Shown here: piece after piece, positions 112 to 12,442 of the stretch
Layout of the letters: every line of letters begins with the position of its first letter
Numbering within the stretch: the stretch's first letter is position 1
From: a bacterium
GTDB taxonomy: Bacteria > UBA9089 > JASEGY01
Reading direction: 5' to 3'
DNA: 12,442 bases
Assembly (NCBI GenBank): GCA_030019105.1
Contig: JASEGY010000060.1
Span: 1 to 12,442, forward strand
Made by a program: the position numbers and the translations under genes
The notes under the pieces: generated by a model
Seen by the model: the letters and a program-made list of their open reading frames with translations, nothing else
Told to the model about the DNA's origin: nothing
The model's database searches: none

Positions 112-161
112 GAAATTAGAAAGTATGAAGGCCCAATTTCTAATTTCCAATTTCTAATTTC
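112..161. repeat. 14-nt tandem repeat with an upstream inverted copy
   Basis: The unit CCAATTTCTAATTTC occurs at 133-147 and again at 147-161, a period of 14 nt. GAAATTAGAAA at 112-122 is the exact reverse complement of TTTCTAATTTC in both units, so alternative hairpins can form. The tract ends 20 nt before the PBP start codon and lies in the presumed 5' leader. It could affect the transcript, but it looks like another dispersed AT-rich repeat rather than an operator. Confidence 0.65.
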
Positions 162-181
162 AACATTAAAGGGGGAACGAG

Positions 182-2071
182 ATGAATCGCCAGAGACTAC
201 GAAAGCTAATTCTTCTATCTATCCTCTTATTAGCTTCAGCCCGGCTAACTATAGCGGCTGAAGAGGGTGAGCATTCCTTCCTGTGGCTAAAAGATAAACT
301 CGACAAGCTTCCTTTCCAGCATCTTGTTCTGGACCCGGATGCCCGGATTTACACCCTTCCTCTGGGTGATGGCCAGGAGGCCGTCTCTACTATTCAGCCG
401 GACTTACAGAGGATGGCTGAACGCGCCTTAACTCTTTACAATATAAACTATGGCTCGGTAGTTATCCTTAATCCGAAGACTGGCGCTGTCCTGGCTATGG
501 CCGGCTACAAACAAGGAAATTCTTCCTACTCTCTGGATAATGATAGTTGTAATTTAGCCAATAGTTTAGCCTTGAAGGCCCGACATCCTGCCGCCTCAAT
601 TATTAAAGTAATTACAGCCTCGGCCGCCCTGGAGAATAAAGTAGCCAGGCCGGAATCTACCTTTTCCTGCAGTGGAAAATTGATTGACCGGCGCGACGGG
701 TGTTTGCTTAGCGATCCAACACATGTGAGGCACGGTGAAATCGATCTTTCCCTGGCGCTGGCTAAATCATGCAATGTTACCTTTGGTAAAGTAGCGGCCC
801 TTCTGGGACCTGCCAGCCTCAAAGAATACACCCGCCGGTTTGGCTTTGATGAGGCGCTCGATTTTGACCTTTCGGTAGAACCCAGTCGTGCCACTGTTCC
901 CGGCAATATTAAGGGACTGGCCAGGGCAGGCGCCGGCTTTGGTGATGTGATGATGAGTCCCTTGCATGGCGCGCTCCTGGCAGCTACGGTGGCTAATCAT
1001 GGCCGAATGTTCAGGCCTTACCTCTTCGCTGAGGTGAGGGATGAGACCGGAAAGCTGCTTTTCCGGCAGGAACCACAGGTGATGATGAGGCCGGTTGAGG
1101 CTGCTACCGCTTACCAGATCGGACGGATGATGGAGGAAACTATTACGGAAGGAACGGCGCGGCGAAGTTTTTATAAACAGGGCAAACCTATCCTCCCGGT
1201 AGAGATAGCCGGCAAGACAGGAACCCTTACCGGGGGCAATCCCAATGGGGTTTGCACCTGGTTCGTCGGTTTTGCTCCGGCTGATGATCCCCGGATAGCC
1301 ATATCAGTCCTGGTGGTCAACCACTCTCGCAGTGGAACCAAGTCCACCCGAATAGCCAGCCGTGTATTGGCCGCTTATTTTGAAGTAGATCCCATTCCCG
1401 AAAAAAAATATATCGCGACGAACTCCCCCCAAAAATACGAAAAAAGATATGCCGCGACGAACTCCCCCCCCAAATATCATGTGGTTAAAAGAGGTGAAAA
1501 CCTCTGGACGATTGCCGGGAAATACAAGGTATCTCTCAAAGTTCTGAAGCAAGCCAATCGCCTTCACTCGAGTTCTCTGAAGGTTGGCCAAAAGCTGGCT
1601 ATACCTGGAAGAGGGGGGACTTCAATTAGCTCTGATTCTCTTGTTGCCCTCAGGCCTGAAGTCGCCCCTCCCGTGAAGATAGTTGCTTCCGCCTCAGCCG
1701 GGCATTCTATTCCTGCTGCCCGGCCGACTAAACTTCACGTAGTTAAGAAAGGAGATAGCCTCTGGAAGATTGCTGAAAAATATGGGGTTTCCTGGAAAGA
1801 CTTGAAGCGGGTCAATAGCCTTCGGTCCAATCATCTTAAAGTAGGCCAGAAATTAACTGTCCCTGGTTCAAGAGAGAAGCAAGTTACTTCTGCTTCAGAC
1901 GCGCATTTTGCTTCTGCTGACCAGCCGGCTAAACTTCACGTGGTTAAGAAAGGGGAAAGCCTCTGGGAGATTGCTGAAAAATATGGGGTTTCCTGGAAAG
2001 ACCTGAAGCGGGTCAATAGCCTTCGGTCCAATCGCCTTACAGTCGGCCAGGAATTAACTGTCCCGGGTTAA
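182..2071 (+). CDS. exported penicillin-binding transpeptidase with three C-terminal LysM domains
   Basis: The product is a 629-residue D,D-transpeptidase of the penicillin-binding protein family, expected to cross-link peptidoglycan in the periplasm. A basic N-terminus and hydrophobic stretch (residues 1-26) form a signal peptide or anchor. The transpeptidase domain spans about 68-400 and has all three active-site motifs: SIIK (nucleophile S139, K142), SCN (196-198) and KTG (345-347). There is no glycosyltransferase domain and almost no N-terminal dimerisation domain, so it is shorter at the front than PBP2 or FtsI. Three LysM peptidoglycan-binding domains follow at about 432-475, 517-562 and 584-629; the last two differ at 5 of 46 residues. 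The linker at 404-431 carries a 14-residue duplication (YIATNSPQKY / YAATNSPPKY). A GGGGG Shine-Dalgarno at 171-175 supports the ATG at 182. It is probably monocistronic, since the next gene is convergent. The substrate and division or elongation role cannot be told from the sequence. Confidence 0.93.
   Translation: MNRQRLRKLILLSILLLASARLTIAAEEGEHSFLWLKDKLDKLPFQHLVLDPDARIYTLPLGDGQEAVSTIQPDLQRMAERALTLYNINYGSVVILNPKTGAVLAMAGYKQGNSSYSLDNDSCNLANSLALKARHPAASIIKVITASAALENKVARPESTFSCSGKLIDRRDGCLLSDPTHVRHGEIDLSLALAKSCNVTFGKVAALLGPASLKEYTRRFGFDEALDFDLSVEPSRATVPGNIKGLARAGAGFGDVMMSPLHGALLAATVANHGRMFRPYLFAEVRDETGKLLFRQEPQVMMRPVEAATAYQIGRMMEETITEGTARRSFYKQGKPILPVEIAGKTGTLTGGNPNGVCTWFVGFAPADDPRIAISVLVVNHSRSGTKSTRIASRVLAAYFEVDPIPEKKYIATNSPQKYEKRYAATNSPPKYHVVKRGENLWTIAGKYKVSLKVLKQANRLHSSSLKVGQKLAIPGRGGTSISSDSLVALRPEVAPPVKIVASASAGHSIPAARPTKLHVVKKGDSLWKIAEKYGVSWKDLKRVNSLRSNHLKVGQKLTVPGSREKQVTSASDAHFASADQPAKLHVVKKGESLWEIAEKYGVSWKDLKRVNSLRSNRLTVGQELTVPG
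1730..2064 (+). repeat. recent 201-bp duplication of a LysM-coding unit
   Basis: The DNA from 1730 to about 1863 is repeated at 1931 to about 2064, an offset of 201 bp or 67 codons, with long identical runs such as the stretch coding for AEKYGVSWKDLKRVNSLRSN. The first LysM (from about 1475) is clearly more diverged. This shows a recent internal duplication of LysM plus linker inside the PBP gene, which could vary in copy number by recombination. Confidence 0.9.
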
Positions 2072-2104: not shown

Positions 2105-2358
2105 ATAGCGCGGCCTCCTGCCGCAACCAAACCAAGGACACAAAGGACCAAAAGGACCAAAGGCCACCCCAAATTACCGACCTTTATGTTCATAATTCTC
2201 GCGCACAACGCAAATGTTGCGGGGTAATAGTATAGCGCGGCCTCCTGCCGCAACCAAACCAAGGACACAAATGACCAAAAGGACCAAAAGCCACCCCAAA
2301 TTACCGGCCTTTATGTTCATAATTCTCGCGGACAACGTAAATGTTGCGGGGTAATAGT
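2105..2358. repeat. two head-to-tail 127-bp intergenic repeats
   Basis: Copy 1 is 2105-2231 and copy 2 is 2232-2358, directly abutting and differing at five positions by my alignment. Each starts with ATAGCGCGGCC and ends with GGGGTAATAGT. Near the start of each copy GCGGC-CTCCT-GCCGC can form a short hairpin. A further 30-bp match to the beginning of the unit lies at 12394-12423, so the family is dispersed. The unit length is not a multiple of three and the apparent reading frames in it are not credible genes. The repeats fill most of the gap between the convergent PBP and giant protease genes. Confidence 0.9.
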
Positions 2359-2465
2359 ACTCCATTCCATTTGATTTTAGTGGTTTGGATAGAAACCAGG
2401 TTCCTTCAAGAAACCTGGTTTCTGCGGGGCCTACCAACAAATTCAAATGGAAGGGGGTAATAGTA
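2348..2465. mobile_element. MITE-like hairpin element flanked by 12-bp direct repeats
   Basis: GGGGTAATAGTA occurs at 2348-2359 and again at 2454-2465. Between them lies about 94 bp with nested inverted repeats: TTCCATTTGA at 2365-2374 with its complement at 2443-2452, and a perfect 12-bp stem AGAAACCAGGTT (2391-2402) with AACCTGGTTTCT (2412-2423). The layout is that of a small non-autonomous element inserted into the end of the second 127-bp repeat with duplication of its target. GAAACC-type palindromes are common dispersed repeats in bacteria. No transposase is present. The alternative is that the flanking copies are remnants of a longer array of the 127-bp repeat. The hairpin lacks a T tract, so it is not called as a terminator. 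Confidence 0.5.
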
Positions 2466-2475
2466 TAGTCAAGTA

Positions 2476-5400
2476 CTATTTGATAATTACCAGCTTACCG
2501 GCCCGTTTGGTCTTTAAGTCAGATAAGCGGTAGATATAAACTCCACTGGGCAGCCTATCTTGCCTGACCCACCACCGCCATCTACTTTCCGATGGTTTCG
2601 CCGTCTTAATCAACTGTCCGGCCAGATTAAAGATATGGATTTGCACCCCCTCCTTTAGCCCCTCAAAGACAATGGCCTCGGCTTTGGAGGCATCGAACAA
2701 GGTCGGATAAATGACAACCCTGCTTAAATCCTGAGCCGGTAGAGGGACATATTCGGCTATCCTGAAGATGGAGAGATGAGGAACTTCAGCGCTGAGGGTA
2801 TGCTTATTCTTGTCTCTATCTACTATACTGCCAGTCATAATCCACTGCGTTCCGTTAAGACGATAAATCAAAATATCTTGCTCGTTAACCGGCAAATCAG
2901 CCGGATAGGGAATAGTGACCCTGACCGGATGATGAAACCCATCGGGTAAGATCACATCTCCATCCTCGCCTGTCACCCGGTACTCCCGGGTAGTTTCAGG
3001 AACCAGATAACCTAAAGACGGGTCTGCTTCAGCCGCTCTGTCCGCCTCTTCCAACTCGGGCGAAGATGGACTAAGGTCCATAAACAGGGTCACTGGTTCA
3101 TCAAAAGCGCCGGCCGGGATATTTAAACCGGTTCCGTCTGAGCGGGTGATAATGCTTTCTTCAGTGGGGTCGATAAAGATAATATCATTTACAACTATTA
3201 AAGGGGTCTGATTCCCGACCCTGTCCTTGATCCCATCCACCTTCATGGTATACACCGTGGAGGCCCTCATCCCTTCAACTTCAAGCTGAACCAGCCCGGA
3301 ATCATTTTCGTCAAGGTAACTCTTTGTAATGCAAAGAGTAATACTGGAGGTATCCGTTTCCGCTACAGCAAAAAGGGTATCTTCCAGGCTCAGCGGCAGA
3401 CTTTCGTCGGCCAGGTGGAGTAGAAACCCATCCTGGTTGGCCGTGACCCATTCCAGAGCCGGCGGGGTATGATCTATTCGGATGAAGCCGGGAGAAAGGG
3501 AGGTGAAACTGAACCGGCCGTCGGTTATTTCAGATGATACCCGGTACTGACCTTCTGCCACCTGTGAAGTATCCCAGAGGTAACTATCCGCCTCGTCATC
3601 CTCACTCAATCCGGAAACAATTAGAATGCGGAATGCGGATTGCGGATTGCGGATTGCGGACGGCCGACGTTTCCCGATCCACGGTCGGCTTCTATCTGTG
3701 AACTGTGGACTGTGGGCTGTGGACTGAGTGGACTCATAGAAAAGGGAGATAGCGGCATCATCGTCCATGTCCTCATCATTCCAACTAATTTGGTAGTTAT
3801 CCTTGACCGCTACCCCTTCGGCTGGAGGGGTAAGCAGGGTAATAGTTGGGGCATCCTTAATGGGTTCAATCTGCTCGGCGCTGAGCGTGACATTACCGGC
3901 GACATCTTCAACCCTGATCCGATAGGTCAAGGTTTTACCGGCTACGACCTCCCACCCTCCGGCCGGCGACGTAATCTGAAATCCGCAATCCGAAATCGAT
4001 TCAATCTGCAATCCGCAATCGGAACAATCTGCAATCTGCAATCCGCAATCCGCAATTCCGGAGCCGCCCTCATCCGCGGCTGTAACCCTGACGATCAGGT
4101 CTCCCTCAAAATGTTCCGTCAGGTCTGCCGGCTCCTGACTAATGTCGGCGATAGTCGGGGCAGTCCTGTCAAGGCCGATCCCCTCGATTTTCTCAGGGGA
4201 TTCTTTATGCCCAACCTGGTCGATGGCCCAATAGGCCAGGGTATTGTCCGGCCATTCGGTAGTGATGAGGGGTTGCCCGTCCAGGCTCACCCTTTGCTCC
4301 CGGCCGTCATTAATCCGGTAGTAAATATCCTCTACGCCGCTGCCCTGGCCGTCATCGGCCGTCAACTCGATGGTAAAATCCTGTCTTCGCCAGCCAGGCT
4401 CATAGTCAGCCATTGTTACCGGGGCCTGGTTGTCAACCTTGATCGATCTTTCCGCCCAGGCTGAATAGGTCCCTTCATCATCCCTGGCTCTGGCCCTCAA
4501 GATGACATTGGGATTTATACCCCGGGCAGGAAGACTATTCCAGGTCAAGGTGTAGGGAGGCGAAGTAATTGGACTCCCTGAAACATCCGGCCAGCTCTGA
4601 CCATTATCCAGCGAGACCTGGATAAAGACCCGGTCTATCTTCCCATCCTGGTCCTGGCAGTCAAGCTTCAAGCTCAGGTTGTCTTTGTGCCAGATATCAG
4701 CTTCCGGTTGAATCCAACTGCAGGTCGGGGAATCATTTATATCGTCGATCAGCTCTTCTTCAATAGAGCTGAAGACGACATTTCCGGCCTGGTCTGTGGC
4801 CCTGACCTGCCAGGAAACAACCTGGCCCCGAACCCCGTCCCATGGAGATTGCGGATTGCGGATTGCGGATTGCGGATTGATGTCTGTAGACCATATCTCC
4901 TGGAGGATTCTGGTCATGGTTGAAAATTCAGACCAGCCGCTTGCCTCAATCTGATAAGCCAGCTCTACGTGGGCAAGACCACTCCCGCCTTCATCTCTGA
5001 CCTCCACCTCAATCCGGAAAGGTCCTGAGGTGTCCTCAGTCAAATCCAGGGGATCAGTGGAGAAAGCCCCGATATCAGGGGGTGTGGTTTCGTATCTCAA
5101 TTCGACCGAAGCCACCTGAAGGTAATCCTGCTGACCGAGGTTATCTTCTAACCAGAGATAGAGCATCGGCCCGCCAGGCCAGCTCGGCCCGCCAGGCCGG
5201 CTCGGCTCGCCAGGCCGGGTCGCCATAATTTCAAAGGGGTGGAGGGTGGTTGATTCGCCCTCGTCTCCAGTTTCCGGCGGTGAATCGAGCTGGTAATGAG
5301 TATATGCAATCCCGGAGAGATCGGGTGGATCAGTCCAGTCGATGATAAAGTCAGGGGAATTCTTCCAGGGGCTTGGATTTTCATCGTCCGCAGTTAAATC

Positions 5401-8400
5401 AATGGGGGGAGGCGGCGGGCTCTTGTCTAACTTAATACCGGTCAATATCCGGAAAGATTCCTGATTGCCCACTACATCCACACTCCAGTATTCCAGGATA
5501 TTATTATCGCGCTCAGTAGTAATAACCGGCTGTCCGTAGGCTGCAGTATCCTTCTCCTCTCCCTCATTGATCCGGTAATAGGTCCCGGCTGCTCCGCTTC
5601 CCTGTCCATCTTCGGGGATGAGAGTAATAGTGAAATCCTGGGTCTGCCAGTTGCCATCATAATCGTGGGAAGTAACCGGGGCCTCGTTATCTATCCTGAT
5701 CCGGATTTCATCGTACTTAGAATAGCTCCCCTCATTGTCCTGACTTCTGGCCATGATCTTAACCGCCGCGGCTACCCCGGTATCCGGCCGGCTGTCCCAT
5801 TCTAATTGGTAAGGCGGTTCAGTTACAGGGGGCAAATCAAACCATTCCCCGGCAAGGAAATAAGCAAATTCCACCTTGACTATCTTTCCGTCAGAATCAA
5901 TGGCCTCAGCAGAGAGGGTTACATCTCCCCTATACCAATTATCCGCAGCAGGACCGATTAGCCGGCAGAAGGGAGGATCATTGATGGAATCAATAAGCTC
6001 CTCCTGTTCTGAACTCTCGATTATGTTTCCGGCCACATCCGCTGCTTTGACCTTAAAGCTTATTGTCTCACCCCGATAATTATCCCACAACCCCGGTTCA
6101 GGGATGGAGAAGAAATGGCTTTTGCCGCCCTGAGAAGTCATATCTTCATAACCATCGTAGGCCTGGCTGCCCAACCGGTAATCAAATTGGGGAATCCCTG
6201 AAAAGCCGCTCAGGGTATCAGTTACCGAGACATAGACGGTTAAATGACCAACTGAGTCTTCGGTTAAATCAGGGGGATATTTTACCCAGTTGCTGATAAC
6301 CGGTGGGGTCAGGTCTAATTTGATCCCGGTAAGAGATTTTGACGACTCCCGATTTCCTAACTTATCTATGCTCCAGTAAGTAAGCCGGTTATTTGTTCCT
6401 TCCAGATTAATGAGGGGTTGGGTATCGTTTATTTCCGGTCCGCTGTTTATTCGGTAGGTGGTGGTTTCAACACCCCCTCCATTCCCATCTGTGGCCAACA
6501 AAGGAATGTAAAAGGCTTCCGGGTGCCAGATATCCTGGTAGATAGCCGTAGTCACCGGCGGCTGATTGTCCACCCCTATGGAACCGGTATCATACCCTGA
6601 AGCCAGGCCATCTTCATCGGCGGCCATTACCCGAAGTACCACGCCAGTATCTACACTGTTAGCCGGCTGGCTTGACCAGGCCAAAGAATAGATAGCTCCA
6701 GTGCCCGTGCTTACCGGGCTTCCGGCACAATCCTCCCAGCGCCCTTCCCGGTAATATTGAAACTCCACCCGGTTGATGGCATTATCCGGATCATCTACTT
6801 TTGCCTGGATTTCAATTATGCCGGCGTACCAATCAGGTTCGGCCGGGTAAATTAACCGACAGACAGGTGGATCATTGATGGAGTCGATCAATTCGGTAAT
6901 CTCCTCAAAGGCTTCATTCCCAGCCACATCAGTGGCCCTGATCTGCACGTAGATGTTTTTCCCCCGCTCATTATCCCATAATTCCGGTTCAGGGATAGTC
7001 GCTGACCAGGTATCCCCTTCAGCAGTCATTTCCTCGTAACCATCGCAGGCTGCATCACCTATCCGCCAGTTAAATTCAACTCCGGCTGACCCGCTCAGAG
7101 TCTCCTTAATAGTCACGGCCACCTTGAGAGGGCCAATACTGTCTTCGGTCAAATCTTCCGGATCAAGAGACCAGGAGATAATTCCAGGGGGAGTTTTATC
7201 TAACTTCAGGCCGCTCAGGAAGCCGGGCTTCTCCTGGTTGCCCACCTGGTCTATGCTCCAGTAAGTGAGGCTGTTGTCAGTCCCTTCGGTGCTAATAACC
7301 GGCAGCCCGTTGAGACTCAGGCACCTTGTTTCACCCCCGTTAATCTGATAATAGGTGTCAAATATGCCGGACCCTGTACCATCACCGGCCTCCAGGCTGA
7401 TGGTTAGATCAGAGGTATACCAGGAAGAAGTGTCAGTAGAGGCAAAAGTCTGCGGCGGCCGGTTATCTACACTGATCGCTACGGTGTCCCACCCGGAGTC
7501 AAGGCCGGTCAGGTCCCAGGCCCTGGCCCTGAGATAAACCCGGGTATCTACACCGTCAGCCGGAGAACTGTTCCAGGTAAGTTGATATGGAAGAGAGGTA
7601 ACCGGACTTCCTGACACCTCCTGCCAATCCTGGCCATCAAGTGAGAAGACAAATTCAACCGAGTCCATAGCTTCCTCATCAGTTGCCTCAGCCGTAATCA
7701 CTATCCGGCCAGCCTGCCAGGTAAAGGAATCCGGTGAAGTGATCCGGCAGGTAGGGGTATCATTTACGGTCTCAATGAACTCGCTTCCTTCCTCTGCCAC
7801 GGACTCATTGCCGGCCAGGTCATTGCATCTAACCCGCCAATAGATGGCCTCCTCCTGATGGTCGGCCCAGGTACCTGGCGGGAGGATGGAAAATGACCAC
7901 GTATCCCCTTCCCCCTGCGTCATAACTTCATAGCCGTCATAATTAGTTGAGTCAAGCCTATAATTCAGGTAAGGCACAATAATGCCACTCAGGGTGTCAT
8001 TTACGGTCAGGCTGACGGTTAAAGGTCCCGATGTCTTTTCGGTCAGGTAAGGGGGATCAAGGGTATATGGGCCAAAGACCGGTCCGGTCTTATCCAGCTT
8101 GATCCCGGTTAGATTATGGTGTGATTCTTCATTGCCCACCTGGTCAATGCCCCAGTATTCAAGCTGGTTATCCCCCCCTTCCGTAGAGATTACCGGCTGA
8201 CCGTGAGCAGATAGATTCCTTTCAGCCCCACCATTAATCCGGTAGCGGATGTCCGAGTTTTCAAGCCCGCTGCCGTCGCCGTCATTGCCGGTGATGTTGA
8301 TCGTAAAATCCTGCTTGTGCCAGGTGACATCGTAGTCATCTGTAGTCGAGGGGGGCTGATTATCTATCTTGATCGGTTGTTCGTCATATCCGGAATAGTC

Positions 8401-10626
8401 GCCTTCATTATCCTTAGCCCTGGCCCTGATCCAGACCGTAGAATCAGTTCCGTCAGAAGGAAGGCTGGCCCAGTCGATCGAGTAGGGTGAAGTGTAGACA
8501 GGGCTGTTAGAACAGGAAGACCAACTGGAGTGGTCGAGGGAATAATCGAATTCAACCAGGTCAATGGCTCCATCAGGATCCGGATCGCCGGCCGAGGCGG
8601 TCAGGGCAATGGTTCCCCGGTACCAGGCGTTAGCTGAAGGAGAAGTAAGGGTACAGGTAGGTGGATCGTTGATCCGCTCGATAAGCTCATCTTGTTCGGA
8701 GCTTGTGGCCGTATTACCCAGCCCATCGCCGGCCTGAACACGGTAGTAAAGATACTGACCGCCGTAGTCAGCCCAGGTCAGGTTAATACTGAAAGACCAG
8801 GTGGTTCCGCTTACCAGGGTCATATTTTCATAGCCGTTATATGCGGCTGCTCCAAGGCGGTAGTCAAGCTGAGGTATTTGGCCGGAGAGGCCAATACCGC
8901 TGTCGGTTACATCAACCCTGATCTGGAATGAGCCGATATGCTTGTCATTCAAATCAGCCGGATTCTTCAACCAATTGCTAAATCCGGGGGCCTCATTATC
9001 CACCTTGATCTGCTGTTTAGCCCAACTGGAATAAAGACCGGCATTGTCCCTGGCCCTGGCCATGATCCAGACCGTAGAATCAGTTCCGTCGGAAGGAATA
9101 CTGGCCCACCTAATCGAGTATGGTAAACTGGAGTCAGGGCTGCCGGCACAAGGAGACCAAATGGAGTCATCCCAGGAGTATTCAAACTCCACCCAACTCA
9201 CAGTCCCATCCGGATCACTGGCGTCGGCAGATAGGGTAATGGTTCCACTGTACCAGGTGAGGGTAGTTGGTGAAGTGAGGGTGCAGGTGGGGCTATTACC
9301 GGCAATGGTCAGGGTATCAGTCGCCGGCGCGCTGTCTTCACTTCCAAAGTAAGTGACGGCCTTGACTTCAAAGTCGTAGGTTCCGTCCGCCAGGGTGGGG
9401 GTGGTGAAGGAAAAATTCTCGCTTTGTCCATTAAAGGTCCCGTCATTCGCCGTGCTGTTCAGCCAGCCACTCCAGCTTCCGGCCCCCAGCCGGTATCGAT
9501 ATTGCACCCCAGAGATGGTATCGATGTTAATCTCACTTCCTCCTCCTGCCCCGTAGTGACTTTCAGGATTGTTGTTGGGATATGCCTCTACAATTGAGGC
9601 TGAGCCGTTATAGGTTGGGGTATGGTCGGAGGTTGGATCAGGAGAGAAGGCAGTCAGATTGGTTTGGGCCGAAAGGTCAAAGATGTCTAAGACCCCGTCG
9701 GAGTCGCTATCCCGCCAGCCTATTTGTTCCCGGGTATAGGAGCAGACGCTTCCAGAGTTGTAAGCAGAAGTCCCGCCTTTCATAATACAGGCATGCGGCC
9801 CTTCATAATTTCCATTGATTACATTCAGGTATCCGGATCTGGCCGTAGAACTACATCCTTCTCCAGTGCAGCTATATTCGTCTAAGGCATAAAAGATATG
9901 CCCCATCTCGTGGGCACACACAGCCGCCATCTTGCTTATTGTATAGGTGGCATTATCGTAAGTCATAATCATGTAAGGCCCACCGAGCCAGGCCCAGGCA
10001 AAGGTGCCGTCAGTAAATTGACCATCACCATCATTACTGGAATCGACGATGAAGATGGTAAAGGCCCAGTCAGTATTGTAGTTATTTTTGAGCCAGTTGT
10101 CATAGGCAAAGCTCCGATCCAGGTGATCGCCTGAAGAATAGCCCATATTGCCCAGAACGTCAGCCACCCAGGTTTGAGCAAAATTCTGGTCGTGGTTAAT
10201 GGGTTCATATCCGGTGGAAACTACTCTGATTTCGGTTGTTGGATAAGTGGAGAAGCTCAGGTTAGTATTGGCCGGCGACCTGGCTACCCACCAGTTAAAG
10301 GCCTCCTGGATTTCCGAGATAACATTATTCCTTTCAGCCGTGGTCCAGTCTTCAGTTGAGGAGGCACCAGTACTTTCCGGAAAGATGATCCCGACGGCTA
10401 CACTGCCGGCCATATATTCACTGGTTTCCTGAGTTTGGGGTGTCTGAGGAATGGCTTCCTGCAAGATAGGGGCCTGAGAAGGCCCTTTAGAGGGGGGGAC
10501 AATGAGGACATCGTTAGGGATAGGCCCGGGGATACCCGGGGCAGGCTTAGCCAGAGCCTGGACAGGGATGAGGCTTGACCCCAGAAGAAACAATAATATT
10601 AAGCGGAAGGTAATCTTCTTTTCCAT
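2476..10626 (-). CDS. giant secreted metzincin-like metalloprotease with Ig-like supermodules and FlgD/T9SS-like tail
   Basis: The product is about 2716 residues (numbered from the ATG at 10626). It has an N-terminal signal peptide (MEKKITFRLILLFLL, cleavage after ALA near residue 26). The protease domain spans about 70-305 with HEMGHIFYALDEY (H239, E240, H243). Asp249 sits where metzincins place the third zinc ligand, and CIM at 280-282 fits a Met-turn. DSDSDGVLD (306-314) is a calcium-loop motif. After a linker domain come six copies of a three-part Ig-like supermodule (about 443-2255), then a ZU5/Ig-like region, and a last 85 residues resembling a FlgD/T9SS type A sorting tail (GVYIYRLSD). 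The tail suggests secretion or surface display; the target is unknown. The start is uncertain: GAGGGG lies only 2 nt upstream of 10626, while an in-frame ATG at 10686 overlaps the mntA stop as ATGA but gives an unusually long charged n-region. Four heptamer tracts and an 18-bp repeat are embedded in frame. Confidence 0.9.
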   Translation of the reverse strand: MEKKITFRLILLFLLGSSLIPVQALAKPAPGIPGPIPNDVLIVPPSKGPSQAPILQEAIPQTPQTQETSEYMAGSVAVGIIFPESTGASSTEDWTTAERNNVISEIQEAFNWWVARSPANTNLSFSTYPTTEIRVVSTGYEPINHDQNFAQTWVADVLGNMGYSSGDHLDRSFAYDNWLKNNYNTDWAFTIFIVDSSNDGDGQFTDGTFAWAWLGGPYMIMTYDNATYTISKMAAVCAHEMGHIFYALDEYSCTGEGCSSTARSGYLNVINGNYEGPHACIMKGGTSAYNSGSVCSYTREQIGWRDSDSDGVLDIFDLSAQTNLTAFSPDPTSDHTPTYNGSASIVEAYPNNNPESHYGAGGGSEINIDTISGVQYRYRLGAGSWSGWLNSTANDGTFNGQSENFSFTTPTLADGTYDFEVKAVTYFGSEDSAPATDTLTIAGNSPTCTLTSPTTLTWYSGTITLSADASDPDGTVSWVEFEYSWDDSIWSPCAGSPDSSLPYSIRWASIPSDGTDSTVWIMARARDNAGLYSSWAKQQIKVDNEAPGFSNWLKNPADLNDKHIGSFQIRVDVTDSGIGLSGQIPQLDYRLGAAAYNGYENMTLVSGTTWSFSINLTWADYGGQYLYYRVQAGDGLGNTATSSEQDELIERINDPPTCTLTSPSANAWYRGTIALTASAGDPDPDGAIDLVEFDYSLDHSSWSSCSNSPVYTSPYSIDWASLPSDGTDSTVWIRARAKDNEGDYSGYDEQPIKIDNQPPSTTDDYDVTWHKQDFTINITGNDGDGSGLENSDIRYRINGGAERNLSAHGQPVISTEGGDNQLEYWGIDQVGNEESHHNLTGIKLDKTGPVFGPYTLDPPYLTEKTSGPLTVSLTVNDTLSGIIVPYLNYRLDSTNYDGYEVMTQGEGDTWSFSILPPGTWADHQEEAIYWRVRCNDLAGNESVAEEGSEFIETVNDTPTCRITSPDSFTWQAGRIVITAEATDEEAMDSVEFVFSLDGQDWQEVSGSPVTSLPYQLTWNSSPADGVDTRVYLRARAWDLTGLDSGWDTVAISVDNRPPQTFASTDTSSWYTSDLTISLEAGDGTGSGIFDTYYQINGGETRCLSLNGLPVISTEGTDNSLTYWSIDQVGNQEKPGFLSGLKLDKTPPGIISWSLDPEDLTEDSIGPLKVAVTIKETLSGSAGVEFNWRIGDAACDGYEEMTAEGDTWSATIPEPELWDNERGKNIYVQIRATDVAGNEAFEEITELIDSINDPPVCRLIYPAEPDWYAGIIEIQAKVDDPDNAINRVEFQYYREGRWEDCAGSPVSTGTGAIYSLAWSSQPANSVDTGVVLRVMAADEDGLASGYDTGSIGVDNQPPVTTAIYQDIWHPEAFYIPLLATDGNGGGVETTTYRINSGPEINDTQPLINLEGTNNRLTYWSIDKLGNRESSKSLTGIKLDLTPPVISNWVKYPPDLTEDSVGHLTVYVSVTDTLSGFSGIPQFDYRLGSQAYDGYEDMTSQGGKSHFFSIPEPGLWDNYRGETISFKVKAADVAGNIIESSEQEELIDSINDPPFCRLIGPAADNWYRGDVTLSAEAIDSDGKIVKVEFAYFLAGEWFDLPPVTEPPYQLEWDSRPDTGVAAAVKIMARSQDNEGSYSKYDEIRIRIDNEAPVTSHDYDGNWQTQDFTITLIPEDGQGSGAAGTYYRINEGEEKDTAAYGQPVITTERDNNILEYWSVDVVGNQESFRILTGIKLDKSPPPPPIDLTADDENPSPWKNSPDFIIDWTDPPDLSGIAYTHYQLDSPPETGDEGESTTLHPFEIMATRPGEPSRPGGPSWPGGPMLYLWLEDNLGQQDYLQVASVELRYETTPPDIGAFSTDPLDLTEDTSGPFRIEVEVRDEGGSGLAHVELAYQIEASGWSEFSTMTRILQEIWSTDINPQSAIRNPQSPWDGVRGQVVSWQVRATDQAGNVVFSSIEEELIDDINDSPTCSWIQPEADIWHKDNLSLKLDCQDQDGKIDRVFIQVSLDNGQSWPDVSGSPITSPPYTLTWNSLPARGINPNVILRARARDDEGTYSAWAERSIKVDNQAPVTMADYEPGWRRQDFTIELTADDGQGSGVEDIYYRINDGREQRVSLDGQPLITTEWPDNTLAYWAIDQVGHKESPEKIEGIGLDRTAPTIADISQEPADLTEHFEGDLIVRVTAADEGGSGIADCGLQIADCSDCGLQIESISDCGFQITSPAGGWEVVAGKTLTYRIRVEDVAGNVTLSAEQIEPIKDAPTITLLTPPAEGVAVKDNYQISWNDEDMDDDAAISLFYESTQSTAHSPQFTDRSRPWIGKRRPSAIRNPQSAFRILIVSGLSEDDEADSYLWDTSQVAEGQYRVSSEITDGRFSFTSLSPGFIRIDHTPPALEWVTANQDGFLLHLADESLPLSLEDTLFAVAETDTSSITLCITKSYLDENDSGLVQLEVEGMRASTVYTMKVDGIKDRVGNQTPLIVVNDIIFIDPTEESIITRSDGTGLNIPAGAFDEPVTLFMDLSPSSPELEEADRAAEADPSLGYLVPETTREYRVTGEDGDVILPDGFHHPVRVTIPYPADLPVNEQDILIYRLNGTQWIMTGSIVDRDKNKHTLSAEVPHLSIFRIAEYVPLPAQDLSRVVIYPTLFDASKAEAIVFEGLKEGVQIHIFNLAGQLIKTAKPSESRWRWWVRQDRLPSGVYIYRLSDLKTKRAGKLVIIK
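3624..3660. repeat. heptamer tract (ATTGCGG)n inside the giant gene, tract 1
   Basis: About five copies of a 7-nt unit (GGAATGC / GGATTGC) are read through in frame on the minus strand as SAIRNPQSAF. The same heptamer occurs at 3975-4058 and 4847-4880, and in non-coding DNA at 12428-12442. The neighbouring protein repeats do not contain this peptide, so it is an insertion or expansion relative to the ancestral domain. Confidence 0.9.
3697..3734. repeat. second heptamer family (GGACTGT)n inside the giant gene
   Basis: The tract has a 7-nt period based on GGACTGT/GGGCTGT and is read on the minus strand as STQSTAHSPQFT. It lies 36 nt from the ATTGCGG tract at 3624-3660. Between them GCCGAC (3663-3668) and GTCGGC (3684-3689) form a small inverted repeat. 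The two tracts and the hairpin look like one composite insertion of about 110 bp, read in frame. Confidence 0.85.
3975..4058. repeat. heptamer tract inside the giant gene, tract 2, opposite orientation
   Basis: About 84 bp of degenerate ATCCGCA / ATCTGCA units, oriented opposite to the tracts at 3624-3660 and 4847-4880. On the minus strand it is read as ADCGLQIADCSDCGLQI followed by a similar stretch ending ISDCGFQI. It falls within the last type C Ig-like domain, where other copies have the YRLG...YDGYE strands. It adds four cysteines to a secreted protein. Confidence 0.9.
4847..4880. repeat. heptamer tract (GATTGCG)n inside the giant gene, tract 3
   Basis: Nearly five perfect copies of GATTGCG, read on the minus strand as INPQSAIRNPQS. 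It sits in the fifth type C domain immediately before PWDGVRG, at the loop where other copies have PEPGLWDN-RG. The perfection of the copies suggests a young tract able to change in copy number; losing or gaining anything but multiples of three units would shift the frame. Confidence 0.92.
5168..5221 (-). repeat. three 18-bp repeats coding for a collagen-like peptide
   Basis: Units at 5168-5185, 5186-5203 and 5204-5221 (GGCCCGCCAGGCC-GCTC) code on the minus strand for RPGEPS, RPGGPS and WPGGPM, around residue 1820 of the giant protein. They lie in the extra domain between supermodules five and six. The GC-rich repeat contrasts with its surroundings and is unlike the heptamers because its length is a multiple of three. 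Confidence 0.85.
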
Positions 10627-10682
10627 ATCCCCTCGGGACTTCCTTTTTGATACTGCCCCATTGGGAAAGCGTGTCCAGTTGT

Positions 10683-11030
10683 TCATAAAGGAATTGTTCG
10701 AGCATTGGTTGGCGCCTCCTTTTTTTCGTAAAACACCACTCCAACACGCTGAATATGTTCCACTACATCCTGATCGCTGATATGCTTGAAAATGGACAGG
10801 TCGAAGGTATAGGGCAGAAGCAGATCATCAATTTCATCCATGATTTTGTAAAGCGTGTTCATCGTTAAATCATCTCCGCCAAAGAGCGTCAGGTCAATAT
10901 CCGAGCCGTTCTTGTAGTCACCTTTGGCGCGCGAGCCGTACAAGATCGCTTGATCTACTTGAGGATAACGGGCAAGGACACCGCAGATTTTTTGTATGGT
11001 GGCTTCTTTCAAGCCAAACGGGAGCGTCAT
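10683..11030 (-). CDS. mntA: MntA-type minimal nucleotidyltransferase (antitoxin of HepT)
   Basis: The product has 115 residues, the normal size for a minimal nucleotidyltransferase of the HI0073/MntA family. It carries GSRAKGDYKNGSDIDL, an exact GSX10DXD motif (G32, S33, D44, D46), and a third acidic residue in FDLSIF (D77), so the catalytic set is complete. In studied HepT/MntA systems the transferase adds AMP to a tyrosine of the HEPN toxin and blocks its RNase activity; the same role is inferred here. The ATG overlaps the end of hepT by 4 nt (ATGA), and AAGGAG lies about 5 nt upstream, so the two are translationally coupled. The giant protease gene follows either 56 nt downstream or overlapping, depending on its start. 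Confidence 0.92.
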   Translation of the reverse strand: MTLPFGLKEATIQKICGVLARYPQVDQAILYGSRAKGDYKNGSDIDLTLFGGDDLTMNTLYKIMDEIDDLLLPYTFDLSIFKHISDQDVVEHIQRVGVVFYEKKEAPTNARTIPL

Positions 11031-11440
11031 GATGCTCCTTCCGTCAAGGATTCCATTTTGGTCCGTAGCAATTGAAACTCCGGAAAGTACCTATTGAAAA
11101 TTTTATCGGCAATATCTTCGGCGACGTCTTCGTTGTATGTGTGACTGGTCAAGGTTCTGCTTTTGAGCATATCCATCCACGTTTCTCCATCCTCGATCAA
11201 ACCGCGCCTGAATGCGAGGCGAAATGCGTCGCGACTGCCGTGAATAGTGGTCTCTCCCTGCGATTCAAAGTAGTCTTTCAGGGTATTCCAGGCTAACTCG
11301 TATGTGTATTCAAACGATTGAATAAGCCCCTGGAGTTCAAGCTCGTTCAACTCCTCTTTCTCGATGAATTTTGTCAATTGTCCGAGGGCTTTCTTGAAAT
11401 GATTAAATCGTTGTATCCAGCGGATGTCTTGCGTACTCAT
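11027..11440 (-). CDS. hepT: HepT-type HEPN protein, HI0074 family (RNase toxin partner of MntA)
   Basis: The product has 137 residues and matches the all-helical HI0074 / nucleotidyltransferase substrate-binding family: FEYTYELAWNTLKDYF near 44-58 and RTLTSHTYNE at 95-104. The latter is an exact RX4HXY motif (R95, H100, Y102), the active site of HEPN ribonucleases and the site of AMPylation by MntA. The toxin therefore looks catalytically intact. A GGAGA Shine-Dalgarno lies 6 nt before the ATG. The gene precedes mntA with a 4-nt overlap, the usual order of this pair. The reading frame upstream also ends in an ATGA overlap with this start, suggesting that another gene once preceded it. The toxin role is inferred from the family. 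Confidence 0.92.
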   Translation of the reverse strand: MSTQDIRWIQRFNHFKKALGQLTKFIEKEELNELELQGLIQSFEYTYELAWNTLKDYFESQGETTIHGSRDAFRLAFRRGLIEDGETWMDMLKSRTLTSHTYNEDVAEDIADKIFNRYFPEFQLLRTKMESLTEGAS

Positions 11441-11627: not shown

Positions 11628-11849
11628 TTATGCTGCTAACTCCATAGTTTGTATAGCTGAAGTCTTTTTATCCATATCTTGGATTAAGTCTTGGATAGCA
11701 TCGACCTCTTCCTCTCCAAAGTATGGTTCACCACACTGCTTACAGACAAATGCCGGCACGTCTTCGATGAATAGATGATAGCTTCTTCGATTTATTGAAT
11801 AAGTAGTTTTACCTTTATCCATTTTCCCTTTACAATATAGGCATTCCAT
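11628..11849 (-). CDS. YgiT-type zinc-finger protein (MqsA N-terminal-like)
   Basis: The product has 73 residues with four cysteines in two CXXC knuckles (C3/C6 and C36/C39, the latter in CKQCGEPYF), the zinc-binding pattern of YgiT/MqsA N-terminal domains. The order CLYCKGKM, the VPAFVC strand and the GEEEVDAI helix fit that family. It lacks the C-terminal helix-turn-helix of full MqsA, as most stand-alone YgiT proteins do, so DNA binding is uncertain. I chose the ATG at 11849 because GAGGTG lies 9 nt upstream and the protein then starts two residues before the first cysteine, as in the family. A longer form could start at ATG 11876 or TTG 11891. It is third in a same-strand set after the DUF4258 and DUF2283 genes and is probably part of that toxin-antitoxin-like unit. 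Confidence 0.85.
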   Translation of the reverse strand: MECLYCKGKMDKGKTTYSINRRSYHLFIEDVPAFVCKQCGEPYFGEEEVDAIQDLIQDMDKKTSAIQTMELAA

Positions 11850-11858
11850 TCGATTAAT

Positions 11859-11864
11859 CACCTC
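11859..11864 (-). promoter_or_regulatory. ribosome binding site fixing the YgiT gene start
   Basis: On the minus strand this reads GAGGTG, 9 nt before the ATG at 11849. It favours that start over the upstream ATG and TTG in the same frame. Confidence 0.55.
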
Positions 11865-11891
11865 AACGATGAACATCGCCCTTTCTGCCAA

Positions 11892-12107
11892 TTAATAATG
11901 CGCTAAAGCAACGTCTTCTAAGACTACTTGCTTAAAGACGTTTTTATCTCCTAACCGTTTAATTGTATCTAATATTTCGATTCCGGCTAAATGTCCATCA
12001 GCATCGTAATCCGCCGCTAACCCCTCTGAAAGATGTTGGGTTGTAACTGTAGTTTCAAGAAAACGGATATAGAGGGCATCTACTTCAGGGTCATAAGTGA
12101 TTCTCAT
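11892..12107 (-). CDS. DUF2283 domain protein, likely antitoxin-type partner of DUF4258
   Basis: The product has 71 residues and shows the DUF2283 pattern: YDPEVDALYIRF at 5-16 and DYDADGHLAGIEILD further on. Proteins of this family are small, of unknown biochemistry, and often encoded next to DUF4258 proteins, where they are regarded as toxin-antitoxin-like partners; the role here is inferred. The ATG at 12107 has a perfect AGGAGG 7 nt upstream. The longer frame from a TTG at 12125 would translate the Shine-Dalgarno itself and is rejected. It starts 14 nt after the DUF4258 stop and ends 42 nt before the YgiT start. Confidence 0.85.
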   Translation of the reverse strand: MRITYDPEVDALYIRFLETTVTTQHLSEGLAADYDADGHLAGIEILDTIKRLGDKNVFKQVVLEDVALAHY

Positions 12108-12114
12108 TCTTCTG

Positions 12115-12120
12115 CCTCCT
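12115..12120 (-). promoter_or_regulatory. consensus ribosome binding site of the DUF2283 gene
   Basis: AGGAGG on the minus strand, 7 nt before the ATG at 12107. It is much stronger than the site of the preceding DUF4258 gene, so the DUF2283 protein may be made in excess, as expected for an antitoxin. Confidence 0.8.
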
Positions 12121-12121
12121 T

Positions 12122-12376
12122 TCAAAAATAGTAGGTATATACTGTAACGACTACAATTTCTACTGCTTCTTCAACAAAAATTGGGCGCACTTGTTTTGTC
12201 GCATATATCTTTCCATTCCACTCCTTGCCATAGCTGAAATTCTTGCAACACTCCAGCCGTCCTGATTCAGCAGGCGCCCACCTTTCAGAGCGAATGGCTG
12301 CCTTAATCTCGTCTTCTGTTGTTCCTCTAAAGGGTAGTTGCGAACGTGCATGTCCAGAAAGACGAATGGGCTTCAT
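12122..12376 (-). CDS. DUF4258 domain protein, putative toxin-type component
   Basis: The product has 84 residues with the DUF4258 features: an N-terminal SGHARSQLPFRGTTEDEI (His-Ala-Arg motif then a helix), a central lysine/tyrosine-rich strand region (YGKEWNGKIYATKQ), and a C-terminal VEIVVVTVYTYYF strand. The family is often found beside DUF2283 or YgiT-type genes and resembles RelE/HigB-like toxins in size and fold type; the activity is not established. I chose ATG 12376. The frame extends to 12418, but that extension is encoded by the dispersed repeat at 12394-12423 and has no ribosome binding site. The Shine-Dalgarno at 12376 is weak (AGTGG). It is the first gene of the trio, and its promoter must lie in or beyond the repeat. 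Confidence 0.82.
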   Translation of the reverse strand: MKPIRLSGHARSQLPFRGTTEDEIKAAIRSERWAPAESGRLECCKNFSYGKEWNGKIYATKQVRPIFVEEAVEIVVVTVYTYYF

Positions 12377-12393
12377 TTTACCACTTTTTATCT

Positions 12394-12423
12394 TAGCGCG
12401 GCCTCTGGCCGCAACCAAACCAA
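12394..12423. repeat. partial copy of the 127-bp dispersed repeat
   Basis: The 30 bp from TAGCGCGGCC to ACCAAACCAA match the beginning of the 127-bp units at 2105 and 2232 with two mismatches by eye. The palindrome is better here (GCGGCC-TCT-GGCCGC) than in those units. It lies just upstream of the DUF4258 gene. Confidence 0.85.
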
Positions 12424-12427
12424 TTTT

Positions 12428-12442
12428 GGATTGCAGATTGCG
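12428..12442. repeat. start of another heptamer tract at the window edge
   Basis: GGATTGCAGATTGCG is two units of the same heptamer that is embedded in the giant protease gene, here in non-coding DNA and cut by the window end. It shows that the heptamer is a dispersed repeat and not a property of the protein. Confidence 0.7.

Follow-up and report, generated by a model that had tools for sequence, protein, structure and literature searches.

The heptanucleotide tracts described here lie within a giant gene on contig JASEGY010000060.1 of a bacterial assembly (GCA_030019105.1; UBA9089; JASEGY01). All 12,442 nucleotides of the contig were analyzed and are referred to as the window. We consider it likely that the tracts are members of a population of period-7 tandem repeats, spread over the whole genome, that are born, expanded, shrunk and changed in unit during replication, with the copies in genes being filtered. 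The genome containing the window (G000; 1053 contigs, 4.34 Mb) was compared with that of a relative from the same genus (G011). An earlier interpretation of the window, made without database searches (the sequence-only reading), held that dispersed heptamers of the types ATTGCGG and GGACTGT, open in all frames on both strands, had entered the gene and could supply new linker peptide. Taken as a whole, it is partly supported by the results below.

Heptamer tracts within the host gene

An open reading frame (ORF) of 2736 amino acids stayed open on the minus strand from 2476 to 10686, and a repeat scan combined with an ORF check found all of the tracts where the sequence-only reading had placed them, read through inside this one gene. 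Exact period-7 runs of 19 bp or more numbered four in the window, against an average of 0.0 over 300 first-order Markov simulations. The host gene and its tract-bearing features are as follows.

2476..10686, minus strand: host gene, 2736 amino acids, with Big_7/immunoglobulin (Ig)-like modules (Big_7 profile, 118.7 bits over 4 stretches)
4847..4880, minus strand: site A, (AATCCGC)4-5 read as INPQSAIRNPQS, residues 1936-1947
3975..4058, minus strand: site B, degenerate ATTGCGG/ATTGCAG/ATTTCGG series read as GIADCGLQIADCSDCGLQIESISDCGFQI, residues 2210-2238
3624..3660, minus strand: site C part 1, CCGCAAT units read as SAIRNPQSAFRIL
3696..3734, minus strand: site C part 2, GTCCACA-type units read as ESTQSTAHSPQFTD
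4732..5082, minus strand: Ig-like module m5, which holds site A and was aligned with the five other modules of the gene
3841..4161, minus strand: Ig-like module m6, which holds site B

The ATTGCGG-type tracts at site A (4847-4879) and in site C (3627-3660) had 4.7 copies with 100% matches and 4.9 copies with 96% matches, respectively. The series at site B (3973-4056) was interrupted and degenerate, with ATTGCAG and ATTTCGG variants and 77-85% matches depending on the period. The GGACTGT tract (3696-3734), also degenerate (4.4 copies, 87%), was the weakest in the window. Because the host gene is on the minus strand, two ATTGCGG-type sites, with the unit on the plus strand, give PQSAIRN, and the third, with the unit on the opposite strand, gives IADCGLR. 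These two peptides, and GLWTVDC and TVHSPQS from the second unit, had all been translated correctly, and none contains a stop. The appearance of its N-terminus suggests that the host protein is secreted. We take an HExxH motif in its N-terminal part to be metalloprotease-like, and a sorting-like region was seen by eye at the C-terminus.

Period-7 arrays across the genome

Three tandem copies of ATTGCGG had 75 forward and 93 reverse exact overlapping matches in G000 (168 altogether), spread across many contigs, and four copies had 29 and 36; the reversed pattern, used as a control, had none. The earlier claim that this family is dispersed and also intergenic was borne out. GGACTGT, proposed as a second dispersed family, had no perfect three-copy match in G000 (0 forward, 0 reverse), and that part of the proposal was not supported by this test. 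Its reversed form, TGTCAGG, had 10 and 1 matches; G000 is so rich in heptamers that a reversed pattern is no clean control here. In a survey of the phylum, 5 of 19 genomes had a three-copy ATTGCGG match, G011 coming next after G000 with 28.

The unselected sample of G000 consisted of the 8 usable contigs among 20 drawn systematically (60,975 bp), the 12 that read N being set aside; the remaining G000 contigs were mostly picked for holding ATTGCGG arrays, and the G011 stretches were partly array-selected. In the unselected sample, period-7 arrays of 24 bp or more numbered 12, with seven different units, and there were none at periods 2-6 or 8-13 (four arrays had period 14, twice 7, and one had period 15). 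Three of the 12 period-7 arrays were in ORFs and nine outside, at 78% coding bases (P = 1e-4). G011 had 35 coding, 46 non-coding and 8 edge arrays (n = 89) at 81% coding (P = 3e-18). The sequence-only reading had proposed that coding and intergenic densities be compared; arrays were denser outside genes both in the G000 sample (63 per Mb coding versus 672 non-coding) and in G011 (31 versus 205).

Coding calls for the G000 and G011 arrays were made with a hexamer gene model trained on G011 (G000: 58 coding, 66 non-coding and 3 edge arrays). It replaced one trained on G000 contigs, which put the coding fraction at an implausible 0.47 (41 coding, 88 non-coding, 2 edge). The units differed between the two genomes. 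AGCATCG was the commonest array in G011 (28 of 89) and was found in 0 of the 127 G000 arrays examined, and AACCTAC (10) and AACTTAC (7) arrays were present in G000 and in none of the G011 arrays examined. The arrays are therefore numerous, varied in unit, overwhelmingly of period 7, and denser outside genes.

Comparison of the host gene with its orthologue

The G011 orthologue of the host gene (P0002) is 69% identical. At site A there is a net difference of +27 nt in G000, and G011 reads DIPEPNSTWDG; IPEP..WD is also found at this position in the paralogous modules m3 and m4 of the host gene. Because G011 and modules m3 and m4 keep IPEP..WD, INPQSAIRNPQS is the derived state, gained in G000. 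At site B, the corresponding position in G011 also carries a repeat-derived peptide, which has diverged; the net difference is -21 nt in G000. At site C, the CCGCAAT units of G000 have CCGAAAT units (RNPKSEIRN) at the orthologous place in G011, from which the GTCCACA-type part is missing; over the whole site the net difference is +21 nt in G000. Sites B and C are repetitive in both species with changed units, so the repeat sites persist across the two species while their units turn over. This one orthologue, from the same genus, does not encode the peptides in non-repetitive codons.

Leucyl-tRNA synthetase and other carrier genes

The leucyl-tRNA synthetase (LeuRS) gene of G000 (L185, 283-2901, minus strand) scored 1092 bits for leucine-tRNA ligase, where the cut-off is 548, and its product is 83% identical to that of G011. 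The repeat-coded stretch sits where the T. thermophilus enzyme (1h3n) has three unaligned residues. The distance from GVEIYF to PVFTTRPD was 14-16 residues in 102 of 108 homologues (taken from 120 listed), compared with 47 in G000, 28 in G011 and 28 in P0057, a relative 94% identical to the G000 protein. Relative to P0057, G000 LeuRS has 14 (at the N-terminus), 7 and 12 additional residues, the 14 and 7 corresponding to 6 and 3 heptamers; the N-terminal difference hinges on the start codon, P0058 being annotated from a later start. These comparisons show that the stretch was gained in this lineage. Among the sites compared, the direction of change is established for site A and LeuRS alone. In-frame peptide derived from the ATTGCGG family, as the sequence-only reading had anticipated, was found against G011, against paralogous modules and, for LeuRS, against the 108 homologues.

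A structural model of LeuRS (49 sequences) had a mean predicted local distance difference test (pLDDT) score of 84.9, with pLDDT below 50 at residues 1-26, 266-295, 628-640 and 667-671, that is, at the two stretches holding repeat-coded residues plus two others. The inner repeat segment is predicted between strands at 250-260 and 298-303, and the repeat-coded stretch is predicted to be a disordered loop. The repeats would not serve as linker peptide only: at site B, the repeat-coded residues are predicted as β-strands of Ig-like module m6.

Coding arrays were present in 30 G000 genes, of which 18 had matches in the 45% of the G011 genome that was covered and 8 had likely orthologues (at least 67% identity). 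G000 and G011 differ at orthologous heptamer sites in LeuRS, a DinG/YoaA-like helicase (79% identical to the G011 copy; under family cut-offs), L210 (73% identical; no family assigned; +123 nt in G000) and an MlaC-like protein (68% identical; under family cut-offs). One difference in the MlaC-like gene is +21 nt where G000 holds three TCCGCAT units. The tracts of L198 and L202 are at the extreme N-terminus, where the comparison with G011 is ambiguous. Judged by the family scores of LeuRS and of six genes in other phyla (below), the carrier genes look functional. Three to six separate tracts, with different units per gene, were seen in L203 (996-5390, plus strand), L218 (835-2850, minus strand) and L199 (3-3221, minus strand); the L203 gene encodes an acyl-CoA dehydratase activase-like protein.

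Filters on coding arrays

The sequence-only reading had regarded openness on both strands as the property that makes these repeats protein-permissive. As something special to ATTGCGG this was rejected, since 50.4% of the 16380 primitive heptamers, or about half, share it. Ordinary as it is among heptamers, openness does filter coding arrays. Units open on both strands made up 53 of 58 coding versus 34 of 66 non-coding arrays in G000, and 33 of 35 versus 27 of 46 in G011 (pooled, 86 of 93 versus 61 of 112, P = 5e-10, edge arrays excluded). The difference persisted with one array per ORF (P = 0.002 in G000 and 0.03 in G011) and, in G000, without the AATCCGC class (14 of 19 versus 14 of 46, P = 0.002). 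Such a bias is expected from survivorship, yet it shows a filter acting.

Both orientations of the ATTGCGG unit occur in genes, as had been supposed, but they are not equally permissive. The ratio of PQSAIRN to IADCGLR readings in three samples, with one array per ORF, was 19:8 (P = 0.05), 7:2 (P = 0.18) and 28:9 (P = 0.003), and 54:19 when pooled (P = 5e-5). We read this bias as selection for the hydrophilic, cysteine-free PQSAIRN peptide. A rival reading is convergent selection, in which proteins favor a peptide resembling NPQSAIRN and the DNA repeat merely follows from it. It would fit the orientation bias and the NPQSAIRN-like peptides in unrelated proteins (P0054-P0056). We nonetheless judge it very improbable, given that arrays are denser in non-coding DNA, that both readings occur, and that the DNA unit is repeated letter for letter.

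Seven of 15 indels at heptamer sites were multiples of 21 nt, where 1 in 7 is expected (P = 0.003); the test was post hoc, drew on 5 genes, and used values that are not independent. The table of indels originally had 14 values (P = 0.0016), to which LeuRS versus G011 (+57) was added to give 7 of 15 (P = 0.0027), and it omits non-heptamer changes (+36 in an 18-bp repeat, -66 and -9).

Arrays in other phyla and in viruses

A four-copy scan matched at least 118 stretches. We examined 80 loci among the matches listed, nearly all of them metagenome-assembled, several of which come from one genome. Going by the order and family names in the record titles, we take them to represent 14 phylum-level groups (Acidobacteria, Verrucomicrobia, Chloroflexi, Planctomycetes, Proteobacteria, Latescibacteria, Nitrospirae, Hydrogenedentes, Bacteroidetes, Nitrospinae, Desulfobacterota, Omnitrophota, Schekmanbacteria and Bipolaricaulota). 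In a wider sample of genomes, 14 of 386 had an array match, including 9 of the 367 outside the phylum of the window, and the reversed control had none in 386. Among viral contigs, 15 stretches matched, again with none for the reversed control.

Of the 88 arrays in the 80 listed loci, 40 had at least 60 open codons on each side, compared with 63% of random positions. This share is under the random share, so genes are avoided in other phyla too. The coding rule used here (an ORF of at least 150 amino acids, 60 codons on each side, longest frame) may admit false frames. Ten of the 40 ORFs, chosen for their conserved look, were compared with protein families. Six exceeded the curated cut-off: UvrA, CoaBC, dihydroorotase (PyrC), PseG, L-aspartate oxidase (NadB) and cobyric acid synthase (CobQ); the other four were below it. 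The six are spread over four phyla. The array stretch adds 12 residues to UvrA relative to 9gxk, adds about 5 residues to CoaBC relative to 6tgv, between its two halves, and replaces a loop in dihydroorotase with little net change in length.

Carriers of this kind bear on the possibility that the arrays are contingency (phase-variation) switches, in which one unit gained or lost shifts the frame and turns a gene off or on. Heptanucleotide tracts are reportedly linked with phase variation of HMW1A in Haemophilus influenzae (PMC8262952), and the giant gene resembles that of a surface protein. Switching is quite improbable here: the off-state of LeuRS, UvrA or CoaBC should be lethal or very costly, the measured differences between orthologues keep the frame (only open genes being compared), and the ATTGCGG unit is stop-free in every frame.

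A literature search found nothing containing IADCGLR, NPQSAIRN or two longer or shifted peptides, and turned up no evident work on arrays of ATTGCGG; the search terms did not include the DNA unit itself, and most subscription journals were outside the coverage.

A hairpin, a dispersed element and a transposase

Two other repetitive structures were found. One is a dispersed element with two conserved hairpin-bearing ends (left near CTTAGCGCGGCC, right near GCGGGGTAATAGTATA) and a variable interior of short tandem repeats, spanning 107-225 bp from end to end (7 pairs). It occurs at two places in the window.

12392..12442, plus strand: left end of the dispersed element, cut by the contig end, with 12428-12442 as its interior
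2105..2359, plus strand: pair of dispersed elements, two head-to-tail copies of 127 bp each, 96% alike, with a nonamer interior

The element is also present at L042, L184, L207 and other loci, and the 16-base core of its left end had 121 exact copies in G000 (control, 0). The segment at 12428-12442, earlier taken for an intergenic ATTGCGG tract, has only two imperfect units and is the interior of this different element. The two-ended element does carry short stretches of heptamers or nonamers, but as a vehicle for the arrays it was rejected: of the non-coding arrays, only 1 in 66 (G000) and 2 in 46 (G011) lay within 250 bp of it.

The other structure is a small hairpin with the core CCCACTTCGTGGG. 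Its 22-nt pattern (CACCCACTTCGTGGGTACCCGG) had 19 exact copies in G000, 26 in G011 and none in 59 other genomes. It was seen at L191, L195, L203, L214 and L218 in G000, and at L227, L241, L259, L265 and others in G011. It raises the possibility that arrays, or arrays together with the hairpin, move as units in the manner of Rickettsia palindromic elements or REP sequences, perhaps driven by a Y1/RAYT-like transposase. Several findings are consistent with such movement: the confinement of the 22-mer to these two among 61 genomes, a heptamer-like unit on both sides of the hairpin in 28 of 31 copies (coding sites included), a closer match between the left and right units of one hairpin than between units of different copies (5.7 versus 5.05 of 7, permutation P = 5e-5), the large new-site difference at L210 (+123 nt), and a single Y1/RAYT-like transposase in G000 with an open frame. 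We consider it unlikely as the origin of the arrays, however. Only 1 of 5 hairpins in G000 and 5 of 27 in G011 had a period-7 run of 19 bp or more within 20 bp, most arrays have no hairpin, and most hairpin copies stand beside one or two units. Non-coding arrays are rarely near the two-ended element, and the hairpin core was not found in the 80 listed array-bearing loci of other phyla. Set beside REP/RAYT systems, G000 has the one Y1 transposase, and the 2142 bp around it contained no element ends, no hairpin core and no arrays. The hairpin and the lone transposase leave room for a mobile component.

The fragmentation of the assembly could also generate repeats as artefacts of assembly or binning. 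G000 is in 1053 contigs, at least 30 of 100 listed places of the left-end core lie within 60 bases of a contig start, and period-7 runs were threefold more frequent in the outermost 80 bases of contigs (6 of 80) than inside (40 of 1600). An artefact is nevertheless highly unlikely: arrays occur mid-contig within open conserved genes, related sequence is present at the same sites in other assemblies (G011, P0057), and Stagnimonas aquatica THS-13 (L064), whose record is not labelled as a metagenome-assembled genome, carries an array.

Proposed origin of the coding tracts

Under the replication-based origin that we prefer, heptamer seeds would arise or land everywhere in the genome, and slipped-strand copying would add or remove 7-bp units. 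In genes, outcomes with stops or loss of frame would die out. With stop-free, frame-keeping outcomes alone surviving there, steps of three units (21 bp, 7 amino acids) would be favored. Selection at the protein level may retain tracts where extra residues harm little, such as chain ends, interdomain linkers and beta-hairpin turns, and may prefer the hydrophilic, cysteine-free PQSAIRN reading. Old tracts would drift by point mutation into ordinary sequence, and site B may have turned into beta-strands of an Ig-like module.

Several points weigh against this account. We infer copy-number slippage from between-species differences alone, and slippage leaves unexplained both the arrival at new sites and the recurrence of one 7-mer across phyla. 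Structure-driven slippage was considered and rejected: single-strand folding of the tracts was no better than that of shuffled sequences, with z near zero (-0.1 to +1.3), indicating no unusual single-strand structure. Eight of the 15 heptamer-site indels were not multiples of 21 nt, and all were multiples of 3 because open genes were compared. The orientation bias was not significant in G011 and was borderline in G000 alone. The tract at site A replaces existing residues and is not a simple addition. In the helicase, L210 and MlaC-like genes, loss in G011 would be as possible as gain in G000. Three other LeuRS homologues have long loops (21, 26 and 39 residues), and P0168, the one of these inspected, has no heptamer peptide. 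In L189 (2-6301, plus strand), a 2099-residue frame 70% identical to a 2823-residue G011 gene stops a short way past two heptamer tracts; the repeats may be connected with a truncation here, and not every coding tract looks harmless. Finally, much of the case rests on G000 and G011, with 45% of the latter compared.

Relation to known repeats

Rickettsia palindromic elements are about 100-150 bp long and encode a conserved peptide. Like them, the arrays are repetitive DNA that is in frame and tolerated in unrelated metabolic genes, and they share the defining feature of in-frame presence in unrelated genes and absence from relatives. Unlike them, the arrays are head-to-tail 7-bp units without a palindrome, varying in copy number and peptide length; the hairpin at some sites in G000 and G011 is a nearer parallel.

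Heptanucleotide repeats have been reported in several bacteria: in Calothrix (as cited), as GGGAATC in Xanthomonas and as GGGGA(C/T)T in Nostoc, where 68% are intergenic and some copies are intragenic (PMC4692102), and as GGGACCG at 49 intergenic and intragenic sites in Geobacter metallireducens (PMC2700814). Heptamers have been called the most abundant repeat class in most genomes (PMC4679880). The present arrays resemble such heptanucleotide short tandemly repeated repetitive sequences, or long simple sequence repeats, in having period 7 (12 of 12 arrays at periods 2-13), few copies per array, dispersal on both strands and a mostly intergenic location. They differ from the Nostoc, Xanthomonas and Geobacter heptamers in that ATTGCGG is not of the G-quadruplex type. 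They go beyond those descriptions in their in-frame use in essential enzymes, the sister-species comparison and the replacement of units in place. TAACTGA direct repeats occur in marine Beggiatoaceae, some Cyanobacteria and Bacteroidetes, and their author considered repeat translation and horizontal transfer (PMC4679880). Like TAACTGA, ATTGCGG is one heptamer common to distant lineages. One orientation of TAACTGA contains a stop, and its repeats are described as lying between genes, ahead of start codons, whereas ATTGCGG has no stop in either orientation and also occurs inside ORFs.

Both heptanucleotide repeats and selfish DNA within the coding genes of bacteria are already known kinds; the new part is in-frame coding use documented with sister-species comparisons. 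A further-reaching possibility, which we hold less likely than not, is that ATTGCGG repeatedly provides bacteria at large with material for new protein; its arrays might arise or spread in unrelated phyla, enter essential enzymes in frame, often in 21-bp steps, be filtered for the hydrophilic reading, and sometimes become part of a fold. If this were true, microsatellite expansion would be a general route to new protein segments in bacteria. In the papers cited here, bacterial microsatellites are mostly treated as devices for regulation or phase variation, and heptamers as chiefly intergenic; the present repeats of this kind supply in-frame protein sequence in essential genes. The before and after states in sister species, together with the stop and orientation filters, make the origin of new protein segments directly testable.

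Other features of the window

5166..5222, minus strand: period-18 tandem repeat in the host gene, 3.2 copies, RPGGPS/W, read as RPGEPSRPGGPSWPGGP; not a heptamer
133..161, plus strand: AATTTCT/AATTTCC heptamer array, intergenic, upstream of a penicillin-binding protein gene

The period-18 repeat differs by +36 nt (two units) in G000 relative to G011. The AATTTCT/AATTTCC unit class also occurs inside the interior of the dispersed element. No RNA family reached gathering scores in the window. Downstream in coordinates, at 10683-11440 (minus strand), a minimal nucleotidyltransferase gene (PF18765) adjoins that of a nucleotidyltransferase substrate-binding protein (PF08780), and we take the two to be an MNT/HEPN-like pair. 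The stretch 11628-12418 (minus strand) has an MqsA-like antitoxin gene, with a score under the Pfam cut-off, and beside it a small ORF, with no profile match, that resembles a DUF4258-type partner; we presume that the two could be a toxin-antitoxin pair. At the other end of the window, octamer arrays CGCAAAGC and CTTTGCGC, facing each other at 9-64, represent another type of short repeat. The penicillin-binding transpeptidase gene (182-2071, plus strand) encodes three LysM stretches at the C-terminus and contains, at 1399-1476, a coding tandem repeat of 39 bp.

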